Below are positions 16,215-63,674 of a stretch of 64,000 nt of DNA, in pieces (position 1 is the stretch's first letter; every line of letters begins with the position of its first letter). The DNA is from Pseudidiomarina insulisalsae (GTDB lineage: Bacteria; Pseudomonadota; Gammaproteobacteria; Enterobacterales; Alteromonadaceae): the NCBI RefSeq assembly GCF_003987065.1, contig NZ_PIPY01000003.1, positions 1 to 64,000 on the forward strand, given 5' to 3'. A program made the position numbers and the translations under genes. The notes under the pieces were generated by a model. It did not search any database and was not told the DNA's origin. It was given only the letters and a program-made list of their open reading frames with translations.

Positions 16215-19190
16215 TTACTGAGTTAAATCCCGCTCCACGGTTTTCCGGACATTGCCGCGATACTCGCCAAAGCCGCCAAAGGCTCTTGGGTTGTTAAAGG
16301 TATTGCCGTCGGCATCCTGCCAGGGGTATTGCAGGTAAGGTGGCGCGTTAAACTCGAAAATAAACTCCCCGCGGTCGGGCGTTCCTGTGGGTGGGTTCCA
16401 GAAAAGTGGCGAAGTGCCCACGGTTCCATCAGTTAACGTGCCAGCCGAGCCGCCAGCGCTGGTGGTGATAGGGTCAATGTACACAACCACAGCTAATTCT
16501 GCCGGCGCGTAGCTGGTGCACTGGTCATTCGTTTGAGTGACAAAAAGCTCACCGTTCCAATACTCTGCGCGCAGTGCGACCGGCAGATTCGCGGTTTCCG
16601 GCCCGTAGCTATTGTCCAGTGCCAGACGTCCGTAGACAAAGGTTAGCTCATCATTGAGTGGCACCGCATCACCACTTTGTGTGGTGAGCGTTTGTTGCGC
16701 GGAAGCAAAGCCGCGATTATCGATTTCACTGCTGACTTGCAGCCCCACCGCGACCGTATCATAGGGGCCATCGGGTGTTGCATCGGCACGTTTTTGCAAG
16801 GTGGCGTCGGAACTGGCGATGATCAGCTGCCCTTCGTTCCAGGTGTCAGTTAAGGTTGCCTGCCAGCGTGTCGCAAAGTTATCCGCGGCGGTGTCGGCAG
16901 GGGTATTACGTGCAACCGAGGTGAGTACTGCTGTGCCGTTGTAGTTCGCGCCGTAGTTGTACAGACGTAAACCGCCGACACTACGGGCCTCAACGGTGGC
17001 ATCGAGGGTGGCGGCGTTGTGATCCATATAACTGAAGTCACCGGCGCTGCAGCTGTTACCGACCTGGCCCGTCAGCAGTACCAGGCGATCCGGATAAAAG
17101 CGCCCCACCGGACTTGATGGGCGCTCAAAAGCATCGCCGCCGCCAAGATAATCATCGCCTGGCAAGGCCGCGACGATATTAACGGTGCCTGCTTCATTCC
17201 ATACCAGATCGTCCGACTGGTAGGCGCCGCTAAGACTGCTGCTCTGGCTAAAGCCGTCGTTGATCACGAGTTTACTGGCGTCGGCATTAGTGTGTGACGG
17301 CAACGGATAGGCCACCGAGTCGAATTGCGCGGTCACATTCACCGGTGACACTTCGTTGCCGAAGTTGGGAGTCACTACCCCGTTGGCATTGAAGCTACGA
17401 ATGACCGCGCTGACCGACTCGCCGGCAGCGGCAAGGCCGGCGCCGGTATCTGTGGTCGCGGCCCACGGCTGCCCGCTGCTATCGAGCGCCTGTACCGACA
17501 GCGTGTAGGGTTTCACTACATAGTCCATCAGGCTGGTACCAGTGAGTTGTAACGCAGGATCATTGATCGCGCTGGTATCGCCAGGTTCGGCACTCAAGCT
17601 CACACGCGCGTGCATACGTAGTAACCCGACATCGGTGTAATTATTCGTCAGGGCGGCGCTGCCATTGCTATCAAAATTAAGGGTGACGGTGTTGTAACTG
17701 AGTGACGCTCCGGCATCATTTAGCGGAATGGCGGTACCGTTCACGGTATACGACTGACCCGCCTGACAACTGACCGGATTGGTACAAGAGACTGCGAGCT
17801 CGATGCTCTGCTGGCCGCTCAGCCGCGCTTCACAGGCACCGGTGGTGGTATTGGTGCGCACCGCGCGCAGGCGACTGGGAAAGTCTACTGCAGCAAAGGC
17901 GCCGGGAATTGGGCTTTGGCCATCGGCGGCGGTCACAATGAGCCCCGCGGTGTTAAATTCGACATTACAGTTGGTCGCGACATTGCCGCTACTGTCCACG
18001 CACTGCGTGGGCGCTGTTGGTGATGGCGAGCTGGCAGTGGTGCTGAGTGTGGCGGTACCGCCGTCAACCCAACGCAGTCCCGCGACGCCGCTACCATTGG
18101 TAAAACTAAGGGTGGCGTTGGCGCCGCTGCTACTAACAACATTACCGCCCTGCCAGCTGGGGCCGCTACCGCCGGCGCTAACATCGACGCTGGTGGAGCC
18201 GGTGTACAGTTGTGAACAACTGGCGTCGGCGCAGGCCAGCACCTCAACGACGGCACTGTAGCAGCTGACAATGCTTTGCGGATGACGAATACGCAGATGA
18301 TGAATACTGGCTTGTGCATCACAGCCGATGGCGTCGAGTAGTTCGTCTTGCACCTCGGGACCGTAATTGAAGGTGGTATTATTGCCAACGTTCACTGTCC
18401 CGGGGGTCAAAATGCCGCCCTGGTAATTATTGTTGTTGCCCAGGGTCACCGAGGTGGTGTCATAAGGACTATAGATGAGACCATTAAAGTTAATAACCGT
18501 ATTGCTGGCGTTGCCTTCGTTGAAATTGCCGAGATCAACGTAGGCATTGTCATAAAGATAAACAATAAGGTCGCCCACCGGTCCCGAGCTATTCATGAAA
18601 ATATTGTTGTTACCAATGATGTAGTCACGGATAAATAATCTGACTTGTCCCTGCGGCTCAATATTAAGATAGGATCTATTGTCCATGTCCACTCGCTCAA
18701 TAAAATAGTCTCCGGGTGCCATACGAACTTCTGAATCGTTGCCGTCGAGAATGAGCTCTTCAATATAGTAGGTGCCGCCACCGGTAAAGGTTACCAGCGG
18801 CGCCGCATTGCCTTGTTTGGCGGTTTCGATGGTGCCATAACTCCCGGCGCTGATGTTTTGCGCATTGGTCCGATCGGGTCCGCCGGTCATATTGCTTGGA
18901 AAAGTACTGGGATCCAGAGGGGGGAATTGCAGATTCACGATATCCACCTGGCCATCGGGTGTTGGTGTATTACCCGAACCCTCAATGTCGTTACCGTTAA
19001 TTTCGGAGTTGTTACCGTAATTGAATCCGTTCTCGCCGATAATACCGTAATCCAGAAGGTCGCCGTATTGCTCGCACTGCGTGGGTGTCGGTGAAGATTG
19101 TGCCTGCGCTGGTGGCTGTCCGAGCAGGCCGACACTCAGCACCACCAGCGCAACACCCGTTGTTATGCCCATGCGTTTATTCAAGGCCAT
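16215..19190 (-). CDS. mshQ: MshQ-like large surface protein
   Basis: A 991-residue exported protein, last of the minus-strand mshDOPQ block. A signal peptide ends around AQA (residue 30). The region after it (about 45-300) is rich in Asn/Gly with repeated GNN and GNNN turns and looks like a right-handed beta-helix; it is followed by many cysteines and a long beta-rich part (about 300-990) that I match to the MshQ/DUF6701 family by context and composition. MshQ is thought to act at the pilus tip or outer surface; its exact job is not known. The ATG at 19190 has GGAG seven bases upstream and is preferred over the GTG just before it. It overlaps mshP by 14 bases. Confidence 0.8.
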   Translation of the reverse strand: MALNKRMGITTGVALVVLSVGLLGQPPAQAQSSPTPTQCEQYGDLLDYGIIGENGFNYGNNSEINGNDIEGSGNTPTPDGQVDIVNLQFPPLDPSTFPSNMTGGPDRTNAQNISAGSYGTIETAKQGNAAPLVTFTGGGTYYIEELILDGNDSEVRMAPGDYFIERVDMDNRSYLNIEPQGQVRLFIRDYIIGNNNIFMNSSGPVGDLIVYLYDNAYVDLGNFNEGNASNTVINFNGLIYSPYDTTSVTLGNNNNYQGGILTPGTVNVGNNTTFNYGPEVQDELLDAIGCDAQASIHHLRIRHPQSIVSCYSAVVEVLACADASCSQLYTGSTSVDVSAGGSGPSWQGGNVVSSSGANATLSFTNGSGVAGLRWVDGGTATLSTTASSPSPTAPTQCVDSSGNVATNCNVEFNTAGLIVTAADGQSPIPGAFAAVDFPSRLRAVRTNTTTGACEARLSGQQSIELAVSCTNPVSCQAGQSYTVNGTAIPLNDAGASLSYNTVTLNFDSNGSAALTNNYTDVGLLRMHARVSLSAEPGDTSAINDPALQLTGTSLMDYVVKPYTLSVQALDSSGQPWAATTDTGAGLAAAGESVSAVIRSFNANGVVTPNFGNEVSPVNVTAQFDSVAYPLPSHTNADASKLVINDGFSQSSSLSGAYQSDDLVWNEAGTVNIVAALPGDDYLGGGDAFERPSSPVGRFYPDRLVLLTGQVGNSCSAGDFSYMDHNAATLDATVEARSVGGLRLYNYGANYNGTAVLTSVARNTPADTAADNFATRWQATLTDTWNEGQLIIASSDATLQKRADATPDGPYDTVAVGLQVSSEIDNRGFASAQQTLTTQSGDAVPLNDELTFVYGRLALDNSYGPETANLPVALRAEYWNGELFVTQTNDQCTSYAPAELAVVVYIDPITTSAGGSAGTLTDGTVGTSPLFWNPPTGTPDRGEFIFEFNAPPYLQYPWQDADGNTFNNPRAFGGFGEYRGNVRKTVERDLTQ

Positions 19191-50568: not shown

Positions 50569-51693
50569 GTGGTAGTGACAACGCAAAACATCACCCCATT
50601 GAGCAAATATGAAGCAGATCTGGCCTCGGGAGGCTTTACTCCGGACGCCGCCCAGCGTCGTGCTGTGGAAGAGCTGCAACGACTATATGATGAACTGCTG
50701 GCACATCGTACCGACGCCAACGCAGGCTGGCTGTCGCGCTTGAAAAAACGCTTCGGCAAAGAGCCCGCCACGCCTCAGGGTATTTACTTCTGGGGTGGCG
50801 TGGGGCGCGGTAAGACCTATTTGGTCGATACCTTTTACGACACGCTACCATTTGACGAAAAGCTACGCGTGCACTTTCACCGCTTTATGCATCGGGTACA
50901 CAAAGAGCTGAAAGAACTGAAAGGCAAGAGCGATCCGTTGCCGATCATTGCCGACAAACTTGCCAGCGAAGCCCGGGTGATTTGTTTTGATGAGTTTTTT
51001 GTGCAGGACATTACCGATGCCATGATACTGGGCACCCTGATGCAAGAGCTGTTCAGCCGCGGCGTCGTTCTGGTCGCTACCTCAAATATTGAACCCGACG
51101 ACCTTTATAAAAATGGACTGCAACGGCAGCGGTTTCTGCCCGCTATCGAGCTGATTAAAACCCATTGCACTATTATCAATGTCGACAACGGCATTGATTA
51201 CCGCCTGCGCACCCTGACCAAAGCAGAAATCTACCACTCACCGCTCGATGCCGAAGCAGATCAGAACCTGAAACGTTATTTCACCCAACTGGCACCTGAT
51301 CACTGCAGTCGTAATACCGACGGCACCATTCGTATTAATGGCCGTGACATTCCGGTACGGCTGGAGTGCGACGATGTGGCGTTATTCGAGTTCGAGGCCA
51401 TCTGTGGTGGACCGCGCTCGCAAAATGACTACATTGAGCTGGCGCAGCTGTACCACGCTGTGCTGATCAGCAACGTGCCGCAGCTCGGCAGCCATAACGA
51501 GGACGCCGCGCGCCGTTTCCTCGCCCTGGTCGACGAATTCTATGAGCGCCGCGTCAAGTTGATCCTTTCAGCCGCGGTGCCGCTGGAACAGATCTACAGC
51601 GAGGGCAAACTGAAGTTTGAGTATCAGCGGTGTATTTCGCGCCTGCAAGAAATGCAAAGTCACGACTACCTCGCCCAAGAGCACAAACCCTGA
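50569..51693 (+). CDS. zapE: Cell division ATPase ZapE
   Basis: AFG1-like ATPase (374 aa) that interacts with FtsZ and is important under low oxygen and during late division. Walker A GGVGRGKT (residues 76-83), Walker B VICFDEFFV and sensor-type ATSN motifs are seen. No ATG exists near the family start; GTG at 50569 with AGGG five bases upstream is chosen, GTG 50575 is the alternative. Its stop TGA is immediately followed by the in-frame TAA that begins a palindromic intergenic element. Confidence 0.94.
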   Translation: MVVTTQNITPLSKYEADLASGGFTPDAAQRRAVEELQRLYDELLAHRTDANAGWLSRLKKRFGKEPATPQGIYFWGGVGRGKTYLVDTFYDTLPFDEKLRVHFHRFMHRVHKELKELKGKSDPLPIIADKLASEARVICFDEFFVQDITDAMILGTLMQELFSRGVVLVATSNIEPDDLYKNGLQRQRFLPAIELIKTHCTIINVDNGIDYRLRTLTKAEIYHSPLDAEADQNLKRYFTQLAPDHCSRNTDGTIRINGRDIPVRLECDDVALFEFEAICGGPRSQNDYIELAQLYHAVLISNVPQLGSHNEDAARRFLALVDEFYERRVKLILSAAVPLEQIYSEGKLKFEYQRCISRLQEMQSHDYLAQEHKP

Positions 51694-51809
51694 TAAGAGC
51701 AAAGGCGTTATTGGATAATAGATATTGGATATTGGAAAGCCGTCAACCAATAACTAATATCCAGTAACCAATAACTAATATCCAGTAACCAATAACGTCT
51801 TCGCTCTTA
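51694..51809. repeat. Palindromic AT-rich intergenic element, copy A
   Basis: 116 bp between zapE and the rplM promoter. Its 21-base ends (51694-51714 and 51789-51809) are inverted copies matching at 19 of 21 positions, starting TAAGAGC and reaching CGTTATTGG. The right half holds a 21-base tandem unit (CCAATAAC...CAGTAA) 2.4 times from 51746 on; the left half has ATATTGG repeats complementary to it. The whole can fold into a long hairpin. A second copy is at 56740-56833. It may work as a transcription terminator or RNA-stability element, or be a non-autonomous mobile repeat; nothing decides this. Confidence 0.75.
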
Positions 51810-51810
51810 G

Positions 51811-51839
51811 TTGATCTTTTGAGCGGTTTTCCCTATAAT
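51811..51839 (+). promoter_or_regulatory. Promoter of rplM-rpsI
   Basis: TTGATC (51811-51816), 17-base spacer and a consensus TATAAT (51834-51839), immediately after the repeat element. It would give a leader of about 110 bases. The leader holds a perfect TGTGGC/GCCACA stem (51876-51890) and further GC-rich complementarity around 51904-51922, a possible site for autogenous control by L13 as known in E. coli. Confidence 0.85.
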
Positions 51840-51958
51840 CCGCGCAGCCCACGTTACAGGTACAACTAACCAGTGTGTGGCACAGCCACAGCGGTTGTTG
51901 TGGTTCGCGGGGAAGCCCGGAACTACTGTCGTGAACCTTTAATAAAGAGTATGTTTCA

Positions 51959-52387
51959 ATGAGTACATTTGTTGCAAAACCAGAAACTGTACAACGTGAC
52001 TGGTATGTTATTGACGCTGAAGGCAAAACGTTAGGTCGTCTGGCGACTGAAGTTGCGCGTCGCCTGCGCGGTAAGCATAAGCCTGAGTACACTCCTCACG
52101 TCGACACTGGTGATTACATCATCATCGTTAACGCTGAGAAAGTTGCAGTTACTGGCCGTAAGGCACAGAACAAGATTTATTATTCACACTCTGGGTATCC
52201 AGGTGGTATCAAGGAAATCAACTTTGAGAAGTTGATCGCCAAGGCACCAGAAATGGTCATTCAGAAAGCGGTGAAAGGTATGTTACCTCGTGGTCCACTA
52301 GGTCGTGCCATGTTCCGTAAACTGAAAGTATATGCAGGCGCAGAGCACAACCACGTTGCTCAGCAGCCTAAACAACTTGAAATTTAA
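51959..52387 (+). CDS. rplM: 50S ribosomal protein L13
   Basis: 142-residue L13, full family length, with the expected [18 protein letters not shown] start and [10 protein letters not shown] motif. An early assembly protein of the 50S subunit. It is followed 17 bases later by rpsI, the universal L13-S9 pair. Confidence 0.98.
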
Positions 52388-52404
52388 GACGGAGCATTAA
52401 GAAA

Positions 52405-52797
52405 ATGGCAGAGAATCAATACTACGGTACTGGTCGTCGCAAAAGCTCTACTGCACGCGTTTTCTTGCGTCCGGGCAGCGGCAACATCAGCATCAATAAC
52501 CGCACTCTCGAAGAATACTTCGGCCGTGAAACCGCACAAATGGTTGTTCGTCAGCCACTTGAGCTGGTTGACATGGTTGAGAAATTCGACTTATACATCA
52601 CTGTAAAAGGTGGTGGCGCAAGTGGTCAGGCGGGCGCAGTTCGCCACGGTATCACTCGTGCATTAATGCAATACGACGAAGCCCTGCGTGGCGACCTGCG
52701 TCGTGCTGGTTACGTAACTCGTGACGCACGTCAGGTTGAACGTAAGAAAGTTGGCTTGCACAAAGCTCGTAAGCGTCCACAGTTCTCGAAGCGTTAA
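52405..52797 (+). CDS. rpsI: 30S ribosomal protein S9
   Basis: 130-residue S9 with [16 protein letters not shown] at the start and the basic C-terminal tail [11 protein letters not shown] that reaches the P-site tRNA. Followed by a strong terminator, so the bc1 operon next door needs its own promoter. Confidence 0.98.
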
Positions 52798-52840
52798 TTG
52801 CAAAAGTTACCGTTTACGAAACGATACGTTTTCGAATACG

Positions 52841-52869
52841 AAAAACCCGGCCTTTGTGCCGGGTTTTTT
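52841..52869 (+). terminator. Rho-independent terminator after rpsI
   Basis: CCCGGC (52846-52851) pairs with GCCGGG (52858-52863) around a six-base loop, followed by six T residues; flanking A/T runs lengthen the stem. Confidence 0.92.
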
Positions 52870-53026
52870 GTCTTTGACCTTGTAAAAATCAGGGTATTTC
52901 TTTATCATCTGAAAGCATTTTTTTGCCGATTGCCTCTGCGCAACAGTGCAAGCAATTCTAACGCAGCAGCTAATTACTGACTTCGCGGCCAAGTCCCGCG
53001 GAGCGTCCAAACTGGAGAGTAAGTGG

Positions 53027-53617
53027 ATGAGCAATGCGCCTGTAGATAAAGGCCGCCGTCGTTTTCTGACTGTCGCAACCTCTGTGGTTGGTGCAGCAGG
53101 CGCGGTGGGTGTTGCCGTTCCTTTCATTGCGTCGTGGAACCCAAGTGCGAGAGCTAAAAACGCGGGTGCGCCAGTGGAAGTGAACATCGGAAAAGCCGAA
53201 CCGGGTCAGATGATCCGTGTGGAATGGCGTGGCCAGCCGGTCTGGGTGGTGCGTCGTACGCCGGAAATGTTAGCAGGGCTGGATGGTCTCGCTGATCTTT
53301 TACGTGACCCGAATTCAGAAGAGCCTCAACAACCTGAGTATGCGCAGAACCAGTACCGTTCACGCAGAAAAGAATACTTTGTTGCGGTCGGTATTTGTAC
53401 GCACTTAGGTTGCTCGCCGCAGTATCTGGAAGATACGTTCGCTGAGCAGGTTGAAGGTGTCAATGCCGGTTTCTTCTGCCCATGTCACGGTTCAAAATTT
53501 GATATCGCTGGTCGCGTATTCGAAGGCGTTCCTGCACCATACAATCTGGTGGTTCCGCCGCATTACTATATCGACGATAACACCATTCTCGTGGGTCAAG
53601 ACGGGGAGCAAGCCTGA
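53027..53617 (+). CDS. petA: Ubiquinol-cytochrome c reductase iron-sulfur (Rieske) subunit
   Basis: Rieske subunit of cytochrome bc1 (196 aa), passing electrons from ubiquinol to cytochrome c1. The start is set at ATG 53027, with GGAG nine bases upstream; a longer in-frame reading adds an unrelated N-terminus. Twin-arginine motif GRRRFLT, a membrane helix (about 17-38), and [2Fe-2S] motifs CTHLGC and CPCHGS are present. The leader has a TTGACC at 52874 with a poor -10 and a small hairpin CGCGG/CCGCG (52984-53000). Its stop overlaps petB (ATGA). Confidence 0.97.
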   Translation: MSNAPVDKGRRRFLTVATSVVGAAGAVGVAVPFIASWNPSARAKNAGAPVEVNIGKAEPGQMIRVEWRGQPVWVVRRTPEMLAGLDGLADLLRDPNSEEPQQPEYAQNQYRSRRKEYFVAVGICTHLGCSPQYLEDTFAEQVEGVNAGFFCPCHGSKFDIAGRVFEGVPAPYNLVVPPHYYIDDNTILVGQDGEQA

Positions 53618-54879
53618 TGAAAAATCTTATCGCATGGTTTGACGAACGCATTCCGATGACCAAGACATGGAATATCCACCTGGCGCAATACCCAGCTCCA
53701 AAAAACTTTAACTTCTGGTACGTCTTTGGTGCGCTGGCGATGTTGGTGCTGGTTAATCAGATTCTGACCGGTATCTGGCTGACCATGAATTACGTGCCGT
53801 CAGCAGAGGGTGCATTTGCCTCTGTTGAATATATTATGCGCGACGTCGACTACGGCTGGTTACTGCGCTATATGCACTCGACTGGCGCCTCGGCCTTCTT
53901 CGTGGTGGTGTATCTGCACATGTTCCGCGGCATGATGTATGGCTCGTACCAGAAGCCACGCGAATTGCTGTGGGTGTTCGGTATGCTGATCTTCCTGGTG
54001 CTCATGGCCGAAGCATTCATGGGTTATCTGTTACCTTGGGGACAAATGTCCTATTGGGGTGCGCAGGTTATCATTTCACTGTTTGGTGCTATTCCAATTA
54101 TCGGTGACGACCTGACCCTGTGGATCCGTGGTGACTACGTTATCTCCGGTGCTACCCTGAACCGCTTTTTCGCGCTGCACGTCATCGCACTGCCGCTGGT
54201 ACTGGTCATTCTCGTGTTCCTGCATATTATTGCACTGCACGAAGTGGGCTCCAATAACCCGGAAGGCGTACCTATTAAGAAGAAAAAGGGCTCGGTCTCT
54301 GAAGAAGAGAAACCAAACTTCAAGTTCCATGAGCGCTTCACCAAGAAGTATGACATTGTCGACTCTATTCCGTTTTACCCATACTACGTGGTGAAAGATC
54401 TGGTTGGCGTCGGCATCTTCCTGTTCTTCTTCTGTTACGTAATTTTCTTCGCTCCGGCGATGGGAGGCTTGTTCCTTGAGCCACCAAACTTTGAACCGGC
54501 GAATCCGCTGAAGACCCCAGAGCATATTGCTCCGGTGTGGTACTTCACGCCGTTCTACGCAATTTTACGTGCGGTTCCGGATAAGCTCCTGGGTGTTATC
54601 CTGATGTTTGGTGCGATTGTAGCGCTGTTCCTGTTGCCATGGCTTGACCGCGGCAAGGTGCGGTCAATTCGCTACCGCAGCGGCTTCCACAAGCTGAACC
54701 TGACCATTTTTGCAGTTAGTTTTGTGGCGCTAGGCTACTTAGGTCTGAAGCCCGCGACTGAGGTCTACACCTTATTCTCGCGAATCTTCACCTTCTTGTA
54801 CTTCGCTTTCTTCGTACTGCTGTTCTTCTACAGTAAAAACGAAAACACGAAGCCAGTTCCAGAGAGGATTACTAAGTGA
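53617..54879 (+). CDS. petB: Cytochrome b subunit of the bc1 complex
   Basis: 420-residue cytochrome b with eight or more membrane helices. Haem-ligand histidines are in MHSTGASAFFVVVYLHMFRG and FFALHVIALPLVLVILVFLH. The Qo loop reads PVWYF in place of the PEWYF common in mitochondria and alpha-proteobacteria; this form is usual in gammaproteobacteria. Overlaps petA and petC by a few bases. Confidence 0.97.
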   Translation: MKNLIAWFDERIPMTKTWNIHLAQYPAPKNFNFWYVFGALAMLVLVNQILTGIWLTMNYVPSAEGAFASVEYIMRDVDYGWLLRYMHSTGASAFFVVVYLHMFRGMMYGSYQKPRELLWVFGMLIFLVLMAEAFMGYLLPWGQMSYWGAQVIISLFGAIPIIGDDLTLWIRGDYVISGATLNRFFALHVIALPLVLVILVFLHIIALHEVGSNNPEGVPIKKKKGSVSEEEKPNFKFHERFTKKYDIVDSIPFYPYYVVKDLVGVGIFLFFFCYVIFFAPAMGGLFLEPPNFEPANPLKTPEHIAPVWYFTPFYAILRAVPDKLLGVILMFGAIVALFLLPWLDRGKVRSIRYRSGFHKLNLTIFAVSFVALGYLGLKPATEVYTLFSRIFTFLYFAFFVLLFFYSKNENTKPVPERITK

Positions 54880-55628
54880 TGAAACAGTTTCTGAAAACGA
54901 CTCTTCTGGTAGCCGCTACAATCTGGTCAGTTGCAGGTTTTGCAGCTGACCCGACGGTGCCACTTGATGAAGCTAAAGTTGATTTGCATGACAAAGCCTC
55001 TTTGCAGCGCGGTGCACAACTTTTCATGAACTACTGTCTGGGTTGCCACTCCATGGAGTACCAGCGTTATAACCGTACCTTTAATGACTTAGGTATTCCG
55101 CTGGAATTGGGTATGGAAAACCTGCAATTTACCGGTGAAAAAGTAGGTGATCTGATCACCAACGCCATGCCAACTGAAGCTGCTGAAAACTGGTTTGGTA
55201 CGGCTGCACCTGATTTGACTCTGGTATCACGTGTCCGTGGTGCGGATTGGATTTACACCTATCTGCGTACATTCTATGTCGACGAGTCACGCCCGTTTGG
55301 TGTCAACAATGCTGTGTTCCCGAACGTGGGTATGCCGCATGTGTTACAAGAGCTGCAGGGTGTGCCACGTAAAACGACTGAAGAGCGCATGATCGACGGT
55401 GAAATGCAGGACGTTTATGTTGGCATTAAAACCGACGGTAGCGGCATGCTAAGTGAATCTGAATACGACCAGGCCATGTTAGATTTAACTAACTTCCTGG
55501 TTTATACCGGCGAACCTATGTTGCTTGAGCAACGTCGTATGGGTTGGTATGTATTCGGTTTCTTATTGGTCTTTACAATTTTAGCTTGGTTACTGAAGCG
55601 CGAATTCTTTAAAGACGTGAAGAAATGA
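54876..55628 (+). CDS. petC: Cytochrome c1
   Basis: 250-residue haem protein of bc1 with a signal peptide (to about residue 23), a CLGCH haem-c motif, the sixth ligand Met in a GMLSESEYDQAM-type region or nearby, and a C-terminal membrane anchor (about 225-243). Last gene of petABC; sspA follows 11 bases later. Confidence 0.96.
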   Translation: MMKQFLKTTLLVAATIWSVAGFAADPTVPLDEAKVDLHDKASLQRGAQLFMNYCLGCHSMEYQRYNRTFNDLGIPLELGMENLQFTGEKVGDLITNAMPTEAAENWFGTAAPDLTLVSRVRGADWIYTYLRTFYVDESRPFGVNNAVFPNVGMPHVLQELQGVPRKTTEERMIDGEMQDVYVGIKTDGSGMLSESEYDQAMLDLTNFLVYTGEPMLLEQRRMGWYVFGFLLVFTILAWLLKREFFKDVKK

Positions 55629-55639
55629 TGGAGAAAGAC

Positions 55640-56269
55640 ATGTCGGTTGCGGCAAATAAGCGGTCAGTGATGACCTTGTATTCAGGGCGTAATGACTTAC
55701 GTAGTCATCAAGCCCGAATCGTTTTGGCTGAAAAAGGCGTGAGTGTCGAAATCACTTATGTCGACAGCGATCAAATGCCAGAAGACCTGTTGCAGTTAAA
55801 TCCTTATCCGGATGCGCTGCCAACGCTGGTTGATCGCGAGCTTGTGCTTTATAACGCCCATATCATCATGGAGTACCTTGATGAGCGATTCCCGCATCCG
55901 CCATTAATGCCGGTGTACCCAGTGGCTCGCGGTACCAGTCGTTTGATGATGTATCGCATTGAACGCGACTGGTACAGTCTGGCTGACAGCATCGAAAAAG
56001 GTGGCAAGGGCGTTGAGGCCGCGCGTCAGGAATTACGTGAAGGAATTCTGGCGCTGGCACCTATTTTCGCCGATACACCTTTCTTCATGAGTGAAGAATT
56101 CACCTTGGTGGACTGCTATCTGGCGCCGCTATTATGGCGTTTGCCAAGCTATGGCATCAGCCTTGAAGGTGCTGCCGCGAAAGCTGTTAAGGCATATATG
56201 TTGCGCGTGTTTGAGCGTGACTCCTTCCAGGACTCGCTGACCGATATCGAGCGGGACCTCGGCCGGTGA
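55640..56269 (+). CDS. sspA: Stringent starvation protein A
   Basis: Glutathione S-transferase-fold protein (209 aa) that binds RNA polymerase and affects stationary-phase transcription. ATG 55640 has GGAG six bases upstream and gives a length close to E. coli SspA; upstream in-frame ATGs at 55625 and 55628 overlap the petC stop. The MTLYSGRNDLRSHQARIVLAEKG N-terminal thioredoxin-like half and the helical C-half are recognisable. Coupled to sspB through GTGA. Confidence 0.94.
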   Translation: MSVAANKRSVMTLYSGRNDLRSHQARIVLAEKGVSVEITYVDSDQMPEDLLQLNPYPDALPTLVDRELVLYNAHIIMEYLDERFPHPPLMPVYPVARGTSRLMMYRIERDWYSLADSIEKGGKGVEAARQELREGILALAPIFADTPFFMSEEFTLVDCYLAPLLWRLPSYGISLEGAAAKAVKAYMLRVFERDSFQDSLTDIERDLGR

Positions 56270-56742
56270 GTGAGCTGAGTGCAATGTCGGCACGCCGCCC
56301 GTATATGTTGCGGGCGGTGTACGAATGGCTGGTGGACAATCAGCTGACCCCGCATCTGGTGGTTGATGCAAATCAACCTGGTTGTCAGGTGCCATTTGAG
56401 TTTGTCCAGGACGGTCAGATTGTCCTGAACATTGCGCCTTCAGCAGTAGGTAATCTGCAACTGGCCAACGACCGCGTTGAGTTCAACGCCCGCTTCTCGG
56501 GTAAGCCTCATCATGTCTATGTGCCGATGGTGGCCGTAGTAGCCCTGTACGCGCGTGAAAACGGCGCTGGCACCATCTTTGAAGAAGAGCCGCAACTCGA
56601 AGAACTCACCCCTTCTGAAACGCCCGAAGCACCGAAACAAGGCCCATCGGACGTCATTCAAGGCAGGGGAGAGGGCAAGGGCGAAGGCAAAGGCGACAAA
56701 GCCAGCAAAGGCAAGCGCCCCAACCTCAAAGTTATCAAATAA
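56266..56742 (+). CDS. sspB: ClpXP adaptor SspB
   Basis: Adaptor that delivers ssrA-tagged proteins to ClpXP (158 aa). The N-terminal domain (RRPYMLRAVYEWLVDNQLTPHL) is very like E. coli; a Gly/Lys/Glu-rich flexible linker (about 130-150) leads to a C-terminal ClpX-binding tail ending PNLKVIK. GTG start at 56266 overlaps the sspA stop and gives the E. coli-like spacing before RRPY. Its stop TAA coincides with the first bases of repeat copy B. Confidence 0.95.
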   Translation: MSELSAMSARRPYMLRAVYEWLVDNQLTPHLVVDANQPGCQVPFEFVQDGQIVLNIAPSAVGNLQLANDRVEFNARFSGKPHHVYVPMVAVVALYARENGAGTIFEEEPQLEELTPSETPEAPKQGPSDVIQGRGEGKGEGKGDKASKGKRPNLKVIK

Positions 56743-56833
56743 CTACGAGAGCGTTATTGGATACTAGATATTGGTTATTTAAAACCAATACCCAGTATCC
56801 AATATCTAATAACCAATAACGTTTTTGCTCTTA
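56740..56833. repeat. Palindromic AT-rich intergenic element, copy B
   Basis: 94 bp filling the gap between convergent sspB and dolP. The right end CCAATAACG...GCTCTTA matches copy A closely; the left end keeps CGTTATTGG but is otherwise degraded. Inner ATATTGG/CCAATATC segments pair to form a long hairpin with a short AT-rich apex near 56781. The TAA ends are the stop codons of sspB (plus) and dolP (minus). In this convergent position it may end both transcripts. Confidence 0.72.
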
Positions 56834-57400
56834 AGTCTCGAAGGCGTCGATGACGCGTGCTACCCCGTTTGTGTTACGTGCAATCTCTATCGCCTCGCGC
56901 GCCATCTGCCGATCAATCAAGCCCATCAGAAAAACTTCGCTATTTTCCGTAACGACTTTAATTTTACTGGCATCGACATTCTCGTCGGTGACGTACTTGG
57001 CTTTGATTTTACTGGTGATCCAGCTGTCATTGCTGATGGTCTTCAGGCTAATGACCGGCGCGACGCGCAGCTCGTTATGTACCCGCTGCACGCCCTCAAC
57101 TTCGCGGGCGATGCGGGCGGCGAGCTCAGCACGGCCATGGCTGGGTACCTGACCGAGCAATAAGACCGAGCGGTTGAACGAAACCACCTGCACGCGGCTA
57201 TCCTCGAGGCGCTCTTCCCGTTTAAGCTGCGCGATGACTTTAATTTCTATGGCCTGATCATCGACTTGTGTGCCCACGGTGCGCGAATCGGTTGCCGAGG
57301 AAATGCCAACGGCGGTCGCTCCCACTAACGCGGCCGTACAACCTGTCAACGTAAGTACTGCGGTCAATGCCGCCGCGGCAAAACGAATACGCTGCTTCAT
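56831..57400 (-). CDS. dolP: Outer-membrane BON-domain lipoprotein DolP
   Basis: 189-residue lipoprotein (lipobox LTGC, Cys21) with two BON domains (about 48-115 and 125-188). DolP (YraP) supports outer-membrane integrity and BAM function and locates at the division site in E. coli. It overlaps diaA by 4 bases and completes the conserved lpoA-yraN-diaA-dolP cluster. Its stop codon is the end of repeat copy B. Confidence 0.94.
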   Translation of the reverse strand: MKQRIRFAAAALTAVLTLTGCTAALVGATAVGISSATDSRTVGTQVDDQAIEIKVIAQLKREERLEDSRVQVVSFNRSVLLLGQVPSHGRAELAARIAREVEGVQRVHNELRVAPVISLKTISNDSWITSKIKAKYVTDENVDASKIKVVTENSEVFLMGLIDRQMAREAIEIARNTNGVARVIDAFET

Positions 57401-61145: not shown

Positions 61146-61490
<345 letters not shown>

Positions 61491-61508
<18 letters not shown>

Positions 61509-63674
61509 ATTATGATCCCGACAGAAGGCAACAAAGGTTTCCAGGCGCATACTGTGGCCGTAATAGAAACCTTGCTGATAGTGACAGTCTTTGGTGCGCA
61601 GGAAATTCGCCTGTGAGGCTGTCTCTACGCCTTCTGCGATCACTTCCATATCGAGCGTGTGCGAAATACGTATCAGCGCGTCAACAATTGCCGTCTGCTG
61701 CTTGTTCTGCGGCACATCCCGTAAAAACCCGCGATCAATCTTAATCACATCTATCGGATACGAGCGCAAGTAGTTCAGGCTTGAATAACCGGTACCGAAA
61801 TCATCAATCGCCAGATGCACGCCCGCGGCGCGCAAACGCTTCAGGTTCACCAACTGTCGCTCTTTGTTGCGCATCAGCATCGACTCGGTGATTTCCAGCA
61901 TCAGTTTATCAGCTGGCATGCCGGCTTCCTCAAGTTCAGCCAGCCACTTGTTGGCCGCTTCCTTGTCATTAAACTCGCGCGGCGAGCGGTTGACGGCGAT
62001 GGTCAGATCCAGGCCTTCTTCCGTCAGCGTTTGATAATCACGCATCACCTGTGCCAGCACAAACTCACCCAGGGCGACAATCGAGCCGGTCTTTTCGGCA
62101 ATTGGAATAAACTCACCGGGAGAAACTTCGCCGCGCTCGGGATGCTGCCAGCGGATCAACGCCTCACATCGGGTCACCAGACCCGAATCGGTGGCAATGA
62201 CCGGCTGATACTCGACGTGGAACTGCTCTTCTTCGAGCGCGTTAATCATCTCATGGTGCAACGCAATGTGTTGTTCGGTACTGCGGCGTAGCTGCTCATC
62301 AAAGAAAGAGACGGTCAGCGAACCGGTCGACTTTGCCGCGTACATTGCCAGTTCGGCACACTTGATTAACTGCTGCGCTTCGTTGGCATCGGCAGGGAAC
62401 ATTGAAATGCCGACGCTGGCAGTAATATTGATATGGTTCTGCTCGATATCGGCGGTGTTCATCAGATTATTGATGAGTACTTTGGCGTAGCTCTCAGCTT
62501 CGGAGGCGTCTTTGATGTTGGTCAGCACAATGGCAAATTCATCGCCACCGACGCGGGCAAGCAAATCGCCTTCATCCAGATCGCCCTGCAGCCGCTCGGC
62601 CACATGTTGCAGCAAGGTGTCGCCAATATCATGACCAAGCGCGTCATTGATATCGCGCAGGTGGTCAAGGTCGAGCATGATCATGGCAAATACCTGATCG
62701 CCATCGTGCGCGCCAAGAATCTTAATTTCCAGCTGTTGCTGGAAGTGCTGTCGGTTGGCCAGCTCGGTCAGCGGGTCAAACCGTGCCTGAAAGCTAATGG
62801 TATGAACGGCCAGTCGCAGGCGGTGCTGGGTAAAGATAAGAATGGCGAACGCCGCAACAATGACCGCAGTCAGGAATGAGCCGGTGAACCAGATCGCATC
62901 CAGGTTATGGCCAGGCGCTATCCAGCTGCCATAGCGCGGCGCGACGGCCAGCTCCCAGACGTCACCAGGCACGTGTAGCTGAGTCACCATAGGATCAGCG
63001 GTCATAACTTCCGGCACCCCGGCAATAATCTCCGCACCGCGAGTCGGGGTACTCCGCTGTAACAGAAATTTGTATTCCGGGTGGTCATTAAATTCGACGG
63101 CTTCAAACAGGTGCTCGTGGTCAATCACCAGCGAAGCAATGCCCCAGAAACTGCCGTCAGTATGAAATATCGGTAACCGTGCAATAAAGGCTTTGCCACC
63201 TTGCAAAAGATTCACCGGCGAGTTCAGCAAAATGTCCTGACTGGCAATGGCACGCAGAATTTCGTGAATCTGGTCACTGACCTCGCGGTAGTCGACCCCG
63301 ATGAGTTTGGTATTGCCAGTGCTGGGATGCACGAAGCTGATGCGCAGATCAGGAGCCAGCGCCAGATGACTGATATCCAGATCAGAATTAAGGAATTCGT
63401 CGATTATTTTTTGCAAGCGCATGCGATCAGGCGTATCTTGCCAGAAAATTTCCGGCTTCAGAGCCCGCAACACCAGCACGTTGGCCTGTATGCGCTGCTC
63501 AATGCTCGAGCGCATCGAGCTGAGATGCTCAAGAGCGCGGCGCTTTTCCGACTGAACTTGTTGCTCGCGGGCATTATCGACCACCATCATGACCGCATAC
63601 ACCATTGCCAGTGCAATCAGAAATAATCCGATGAGATCACGAACCAGTCGCAACTTCGCCTTACGCGGCGTCAT
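61491..63674 (-). CDS. Membrane GGDEF-EAL cyclic di-GMP protein with periplasmic sensor domain
   Basis: Predicted bifunctional c-di-GMP enzyme (727 aa from ATG 63674; TTG at 63716 would add 14 residues; neither has a good ribosome binding site). A membrane helix (about 12-32), a periplasmic CHASE/PAS-like sensor (about 50-255), a second helix (about 262-285), a GGDEF domain with intact GGDEF (ARVGGDEFAIV) but no RxxD inhibitory site, and an EAL domain with EALIRW, LEITES, DDFGTGYSSL, IKIDRGF and AEGVET. The NLS-type motif reads VNRSP and the C-terminal loop YYGHSM is divergent. Net activity may be phosphodiesterase; a cyclase role is possible too. It lies between rnpB and mraZ, which are neighbours in many relatives. 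Confidence 0.88.

Follow-up and report, generated by a model that had tools for sequence, protein, structure and literature searches.

We analyzed a window comprising the first 64,000 nucleotides of contig NZ_PIPY01000003.1 of Pseudidiomarina insulisalsae (hereafter the host; its genome totals 2.56 Mb in 19 contigs), in which two palindromic elements, copy A and copy B, lie directly at the ends of the genes zapE and sspB. Both copies belong to a family of elements that share an architecture of seven-base units (heptamers), a position on the stop-codon side of genes, sites common to related species, and units that are specific to each genome in both arms. An earlier note on this DNA, made from the sequence alone, had described the two palindromes but overlooked that they are built of heptamers, that the units are specific to a genome and that at orthologous sites they have been replaced.

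Two palindromic elements at gene ends

Copy A occupies positions 51694..51809 between zapE (50569..51693, + strand, from a candidate start codon), which encodes an AFG1-like ATPase, and rplM (51959..52387, +), which encodes ribosomal protein L13. The element has no strand of its own and was delimited by sequence, arm pairing and folding. Its left border (51694..51707, +) reads TAAGAGCAAAGGCG, the end consensus from the end profile being WAAAANCAARAGCG, and is followed by a left arm of four heptamers, TTATTGG-ATAATAG-ATATTGG-ATATTGG (51708..51735, +). The right arm (51740..51795, − strand) consists of inverted heptamers, seven clear and one degenerate innermost, and contains the 21-base tandem unit that the earlier note had reported; this unit runs through 51745-51796 in 2.5 copies and is itself three heptamers. 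The right border (51796..51809, −) stands immediately ahead of a promoter-like site of rplM, TTGATC-17-TATAAT (51811..51839, +), assigned by consensus match only. The zapE gene ends at 51693, and the TAA that opens copy A follows its stop codon in frame, as had been noted.

Copy B (56740..56833, likewise strandless) fills the convergent gap between sspB (56266..56742, +) and dolP (56831..57400, −), which encodes a BON-domain protein, from stop to stop. The first three bases of its left border (56740..56753, +) are the sspB stop (56740-56742), and the last three of its right border (56820..56833, −) are the dolP stop on the minus strand (56831-56833), in agreement with the earlier description. 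Between them lie a left arm parsed as TTATTGG-ATACTAG-ATATTGG-TTATTTA (56754..56781, +) and a right arm of five inverted heptamers (56785..56819, −). The ends said to be common to the two copies are indeed shared except at the left end of copy B, which is TAACTACGAGAGCG and not TAAGAGC. All four flanking genes were called from open reading frames (ORFs), and the Pfam matches of their proteins (AFG1_ATPase, Ribosomal_L13, SspB and BON) agree with the gene names.

Sequence and arm complementarity confirm both copies as palindromic elements: the outer arms of copy A (42 nucleotides) are 83% complementary and the arms of copy B (26 nucleotides) 88%. The hairpins attributed to them fold far beyond dinucleotide-shuffled sequences (RNA z −7.4 to −9.0, DNA z −5.8 to −7.4), and on both strands none of 200 shuffles folded as well.

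A family of heptamer palindromes in Pseudidiomarina

The inner repeats of the earlier note resolve into seven-base units in tandem. That note had also proposed a repeat family and a search for further copies, which do exist in the host and its relatives. A 23-base pattern derived from the copies, allowing up to three mismatches, matched the host genome 71 times at 33 separate sites, compared with 0 matches for the reversed control, and at least two more sites lie beyond these 33 (C15 near 79.0 kb and C12 near 29.7 kb). With 98% identity between its SspA and the P. homiensis protein, the host stands close to Pseudidiomarina.

Across the genus the units follow the skeleton NTRNTNG, with WTAYTRG as the host unit, and the elements share a plan of an A-rich border (approximately WAAAANCAARAGCG), a heptamer run, a loop, an inverted run and an inverted border. 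We scanned 14 stretches from 13 Pseudidiomarina genomes (1.89 Mb, genes called as the longest ORF only) for a pair of skeleton units facing an inverted pair, each arm requiring two such units within about 160 nucleotides and each seed unit requiring T2, T5 and G7. This yielded 73 elements, 68 of them intergenic, compared with 4 (2 intergenic) for a reversed control and 4 (2 intergenic) for an everted order of units. The 68 elements examined span 67-196 bp with their borders (median 124), and four units is the commonest arm length (36 of 66 left arms and 30 of 66 right arms, two elements with overlapping arms being left out). Unit number varies between arrays, which also contain higher-order repeats of 14 and 21 bp. 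The outer ends have a common profile, and the terminal inverted repeats characteristic of miniature inverted-repeat transposable elements are present.

The pattern of three NTATTNG units occurs in 18 of 26 Pseudidiomarina genomes and that of three WTAYTRG units in 14 of 26, counts that are doubtful in G010 and G023 as a control pattern matches there too. Among 14-kb loci around sspA, 9 of 22 from Pseudidiomarina contained elements, 12 in all (controls gave 0 to 1 per group), and no palindromic heptamer element was found in this same region of 21 other Idiomarinaceae loci or 37 outgroup loci. Because the scan of the stretches requires two skeleton units in each arm, its locus-by-locus absence calls include misses: P. 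marina and the metagenome-assembled genome (MAG) have elements by eye at the -+ locus, and the copy B gap, scored as present in the host alone, holds arrays in P. halophila, P. aquimaris and P. atlantica. A generic four-unit pattern matched 40 of 118 Alteromonadaceae genomes, where the reversed control pattern matches as well, and the 20 Alteromonadaceae arrays that we viewed by eye all lack an inverted partner, possibly except L231. Other Alteromonadaceae (G119, G101, G062, G114 and others) carry long, near-perfect single heptamer arrays of units such as GTGTTAG, CTGTTGG, GTACTAG and CTGATAG.

Carriage by viruses was considered and rejected, the one pattern match in viral contigs being a chance match inside an open frame, as was a hidden RNA family: at gathering scores, Rfam found only RNase P in the window, a bacterial class A RNA at 61146-61509 (+). 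In one MAG locus (L042), extra genes stand between rpsI and petA, containing what in the DNA letters look like Rhs-type fragments.

Position behind stop codons

The preference for gene 3' ends suggested for the two copies is borne out when distances to stop codons are tabulated. The edge of the heptamers lies at a median of 12 nucleotides from the neighboring stop codon, with 30 of 71 stop-side edges at 11-14 nucleotides, and of the 37 elements in tandem gaps, 32 lie closer to the stop than to the next start (p = 7e-6). Elements occupy convergent, tandem and divergent gaps in proportions close to those of the background (p = 0.07; for convergent gaps compared with the other two types, p = 0.03).

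Whether the element supplies the stop, as had been suggested, has a divided answer. The C-termini of 37 of 47 element-bearing genes end within one amino acid of element-free orthologs, indicating that in most cases the element lies downstream of a stop that already existed, and that it provides the stop only occasionally; 8 of the 47 are at least three amino acids shorter, compared with about 6% of 317 sampled control genes (a random quarter of genes without elements; p = 0.014). A stop triplet stands at the matching place in 17 of 60 stop-side ends and also in 16 of 76 ends facing no stop codon, and is therefore partly intrinsic to the element.

The proposal of a terminator-like element holds in form, with a hairpin and with U-rich tails at 39 of 136 ends, compared with 4.6% of 7647 background 14-mers; against it, the stems are rich in A+T, and U-rich sequence is lacking from the majority of tails (97 of 136). 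Canonical terminators are rarer at gene ends with an element (6 of 65) than without (112 of 515; p = 0.02). The elements are probably gene-end hairpins that would act as weak two-way terminators or as guards of RNA 3' ends. In one convergent gap, a canonical terminator lies inside the loop of the element in both P. tainanensis (stretch position ~68750) and P. gelatinasegens (~63398), as if the arms had formed around a terminator or two copies had fused.

Different units at the same sites

In several relatives, period-7 palindromes built of other units occupy the gaps in which copies A and B lie. Comparing orthologous gaps for presence or absence, as the earlier note had proposed, revealed sites common to relatives far above expectation. 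In P. marina and P. tainanensis, whose proteins are 94.8% identical, the 88 orthologous gaps compared contain 8 and 9 elements respectively, 8 of them at common sites where 0.82 would be expected (p = 1.4e-10); a P. marina element at 16506 entered this first comparison and was later dropped for overlap with an ORF, leaving 7 common sites. At 7 of the 8 sites the flanks remain alignable but both arms are made of different units, as where P. marina has TTATTCG and P. tainanensis ATATTAG/CTATTGG. For the 7 pairs measured, flank identity averages 0.80, and 13 of 14 flanks exceed the highest of 84 non-orthologous pairs (mean 0.49), a baseline taken from left flanks only and needed because mismatches cost nothing in this measure.

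The same holds across the genus, in orthologous pairs drawn from all genome pairs and hence not independent of each other. Sites in common numbered 11 of 12 possible at protein identities of at least 94% (0.87 expected), 29 of 37 at 80-91% (2.0 expected) and 9 of 32 below 80% (1.6 expected). Most pairs at these common sites have different modal units: 9 of 11 at or above 94%, where the change affects both arms, 21 of 29 at 80-94%, and 7 of 8 below 80%. Even P. donghaiensis and G025, at 97.2% identity, have different units at both of their common sites. One element of P. gelatinasegens appears by eye to be a mosaic: its outermost unit, ATATTGG, resembles the old type and its border end, AATACAAAARCG, is common to four relatives, with TTATTCG inside. 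Between P. tainanensis and P. gelatinasegens, border identity is 0.89 and unit identity 0.00.

Likeness within a genome

Units resemble other units of the same genome more than they resemble those at the orthologous site. At positions 1 and 6, the two most genome-specific positions of the unit, identity averages 0.58 between elements of one genome (mean of 11 genomes), compared with 0.27 for orthologous sites and 0.31 for non-orthologous sites of different genomes; the within-genome value is higher than the orthologous one in 8 of the 11. For whole units, the corresponding values are 0.27 (247 pairs), 0.10 (48) and 0.08 (1885). The left arm of an element pairs about as well with right arms elsewhere in its genome (0.828) as with its own (0.842), and less well with the orthologous right arm of another species (0.73); without P. 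tainanensis the values are 0.789, 0.818 and 0.729. By position, pairing at 1 and 6 is 0.71 and 0.62 within an element and 0.31 and 0.26 across species, and per-position arm identity finds T2, T5 and G7 nearly invariant, letters that the scan seeds themselves require. Among the cells compared at orthologous loci, 103 kept a pair with both sides changed, 588 were unchanged and 205 had at least one mismatch.

The loops behave similarly. With heptamers masked (unmasked counts are inflated by heptamers left in the loops), 42 of 137 within-genome loop pairs match at z>5, compared with 22 of 944 between genomes: 21 of 66 in P. tainanensis, 14 of 36 in P. aestuarii, 3 of 15 in P. marina, 3 of 3 in P. 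donghaiensis and 1 of 3 in the MAG, the host having in effect too few long loops to enter the comparison. No masked P. marina loop matches one of P. tainanensis (0 of 72). In P. tainanensis, many loci have the identical unit order ATATTAG-CTATTGG-ATATTAG-ATATTAG together with homologous loops. Loops common within several genomes indicate that copies, rather than single bases, spread inside a genome. The pattern is one of concerted evolution of units within a genome.

Replacement in place and its alternatives

Our tentative reading, with a confidence that falls just short of even, is that the elements are hairpins inherited at gene ends, where they probably serve as weak terminators in both directions, and that copies of other elements in the genome have overwritten their interior. 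Such in-place replacement of the interior is favored, rather than proven, over repeated insertion because site sharing falls with divergence, because borders are locus-specific in some close pairs, and because of the mosaic element. Several results weigh against this reading. Orthologous loci show only a small overall increase in border identity (0.51 compared with 0.44), so that whole elements may have been replaced, and the sharing above chance in distant pairs would also fit hot spots. P. halophila, P. gelatinasegens and the MAG are exceptions to the within-genome likeness at positions 1 and 6, and the whole-unit figure owes most to P. tainanensis, at 0.56, compared with 0.12 in the host and 0.10 in P. 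aestuarii. Coupling between the arms of single elements is weak: 74 of 220 units are identical compared with a fraction of 0.282 after within-genome shuffling (23 of 2000 shuffles as high), by letters the values are 0.839 and 0.829 (188 of 2000), and in the host and P. aestuarii the shuffle test found no coupling beyond the common units of the genome. The arms thus agree mainly because the elements of a genome have units in common, and selection on each hairpin is unsupported. A gradient of unit conservation from inside to outside was sought and not found, and the A+T-rich stems and the majority of tails that are not U-rich speak against the terminator part.

The main alternative, which we regard as rather unlikely though a real contender, is that subfamilies of a non-autonomous mobile element, each with its own heptamer, have repeatedly and independently hit the same spots behind stop codons. 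The tight stop-side position means that such insertions would land at nearly the same base, and the excess of sharing in distant pairs, the presence of the P. tainanensis loop in both orientations (by eye) and the gap before a candidate rplU (which we take to be this gene from its N-terminus), filled in all 4 genomes whose stretch includes it and each time with a different mix of units, are all as this account would have them. Against it, sharing drops steeply with divergence though the flanking genes are conserved; by eye, one -+ site is filled in every member of a six-genome clade and empty in the remaining genomes displayed; and locus-specific border letters are kept in some close pairs, and in the mosaic, while the units differ. 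The elements might instead be binding sites or terminators that track a genome-specific protein, their units changing site by site under selection. The concentration of genome-specific change at positions 1 and 6 beside the nearly invariant T2, T5 and G7, and the rarity of canonical terminators where an element is present, would suit such tracking, which we nevertheless hold to be improbable: the loops, needless for binding, are common within some genomes and different between genomes, which points to copying, and P. donghaiensis holds two unit types together.

REP/REPIN elements, small dispersed non-autonomous palindromes at gene ends that carry the motif GTAG/GGAG beside a hairpin, are mobilized by the RAYT (Y1) transposase, and dispersed intergenic palindromes at gene ends invite the same explanation here, the more so as 19 of 26 Pseudidiomarina genomes have Y1 domains. 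Yet the family differs from REP/REPIN in its heptamer arms, in an end profile without GTAG or GGAG and in the lack of a link to Y1 presence. The carriers P. marina G012, G001, G006 and G016, in which elements were seen, have no PF01797 match, nor do G010 and G017, carriers by pattern counts (doubtful in G010), while P. terrestris has a match but no element in 115 kb and no genome pattern match. GTAG palindromes moreover coexist with heptamer elements in the same gaps, and mobilization by RAYT is very improbable. Scarcely more credible is local replication slippage with palindrome repair inside each element and no exchange between loci; the variable unit number, the 14- and 21-bp repeats and the small whole-unit likeness between loci of the host and similar genomes would follow from it, but slippage cannot yield the same unit order and homologous loops at many P. 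tainanensis loci, and is contradicted by the loops common within several genomes.

Palindromes of the GTAGCCCG type that look like true REP/REPIN occur in these gene-end gaps in P. homiensis and others (L031 and L033; G008, G025 and G004), and one such palindrome in P. homiensis seems to have taken the place of half a heptamer array.

A possible route to new units

Under the reading as inherited hairpins with an overwritten interior, an element, once at a gene end, would be inherited there as a symmetric 3'-end hairpin, and its interior (arms and loop) would be overwritten repeatedly by another element of the same genome, so that the genome would drift to a common unit while the sites stay. 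Most likely, the palindrome would stall a replication or repair strand, which could then pair with another element through the common heptamer skeleton, copy its interior and return in the opposite arm. This copying step would need no dedicated transposase, and template switching is proposed because no Y1 transposase tracks the elements; the colonization of new sites falls outside its explanation. That these are self-overwriting palindromes, in which hairpin-triggered template switching through a seven-base skeleton, with no transposase involved, converts a whole genome to a new unit from one sister species to the next, is a speculative proposal that we consider doubtful, if worth stating.

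An explanation through SbcCD was dropped: 24 of 26 genomes lack an sbcD match, and this lack does not separate element-rich from element-free ones. The sbcD family TIGR00619 is found in only 2 of 26 Pseudidiomarina genomes (the host and G005), compared with 13 of 14 control genomes, and this scarcity may help long palindromes to survive.

Comparison with known repeats

In eukaryotes, dispersed repeats are well known to evolve in concert. Judged by description, the mobile palindromic elements of mitochondria in fungi, algae and sponges are likewise small hairpins that spread between genes, and differ in being organellar. Among the papers listed in searches of open-license literature, we found no description of this palindromic heptamer family or of unit swapping at orthologous sites.

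Among bacteria, the Beggiatoaceae have TAACTGA heptamers that resemble the Pseudidiomarina units in being dispersed and intergenic, but which, in the excerpts available, form direct repeats mostly before start codons, with 169 direct sets and one indirect repeat in the main genome (PMC4679880). Geobacter metallireducens has tens of dispersed copies of heptanucleotide repeats with four or five heptamers; one class of 16 sequences, fifteen with five MTYCTGA heptamers, is drawn looping back on the other strand and, likened by this description, may be inverted too, and one heptamer family also occurs within genes, the excerpted account reading such repeats as regulatory RNA elements or regulator sites (PMC2700814).

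As far as the available part of the source goes, the closest published kind is that of the G-rich heptamer repeats of Xanthomonas (GGGAATC) and Nostoc (GGGGA(C/T)T), with fixed and variable positions, which are dispersed, mostly intergenic and usually of four units; inverted pairs number 70 in Xcc and 75 in Xac, and the preceding ORF is 28 nucleotides away on average (PMC4692102). The Pseudidiomarina elements share the dispersed seven-base units with both fixed and variable positions, the mainly intergenic location (68 of 73) and the four-unit, inverted, gene-end layout, and differ in having units without a G-tract and in being bordered palindromes with a loop. The Xanthomonas and Nostoc repeats lie mostly between the same genes in two species while their length and sequence vary extensively, but the swap of unit type at orthologous sites seen here does not appear in the excerpted text, whose authors stress G-quadruplexes (PMC4692102). 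The common units of each Pseudidiomarina genome contain no GGG tract, and G-quadruplexes cannot be the reason for these elements. That an A+T-rich family has the four-unit, inverted, gene-end layout of the Xanthomonas repeats suggests that this layout, and not the G-quadruplex, is the common feature of heptamer repeats, and with the same sites, alignable flanks and different units in sister species, Pseudidiomarina offers a clean bacterial series for the rewriting of dispersed non-coding repeats.

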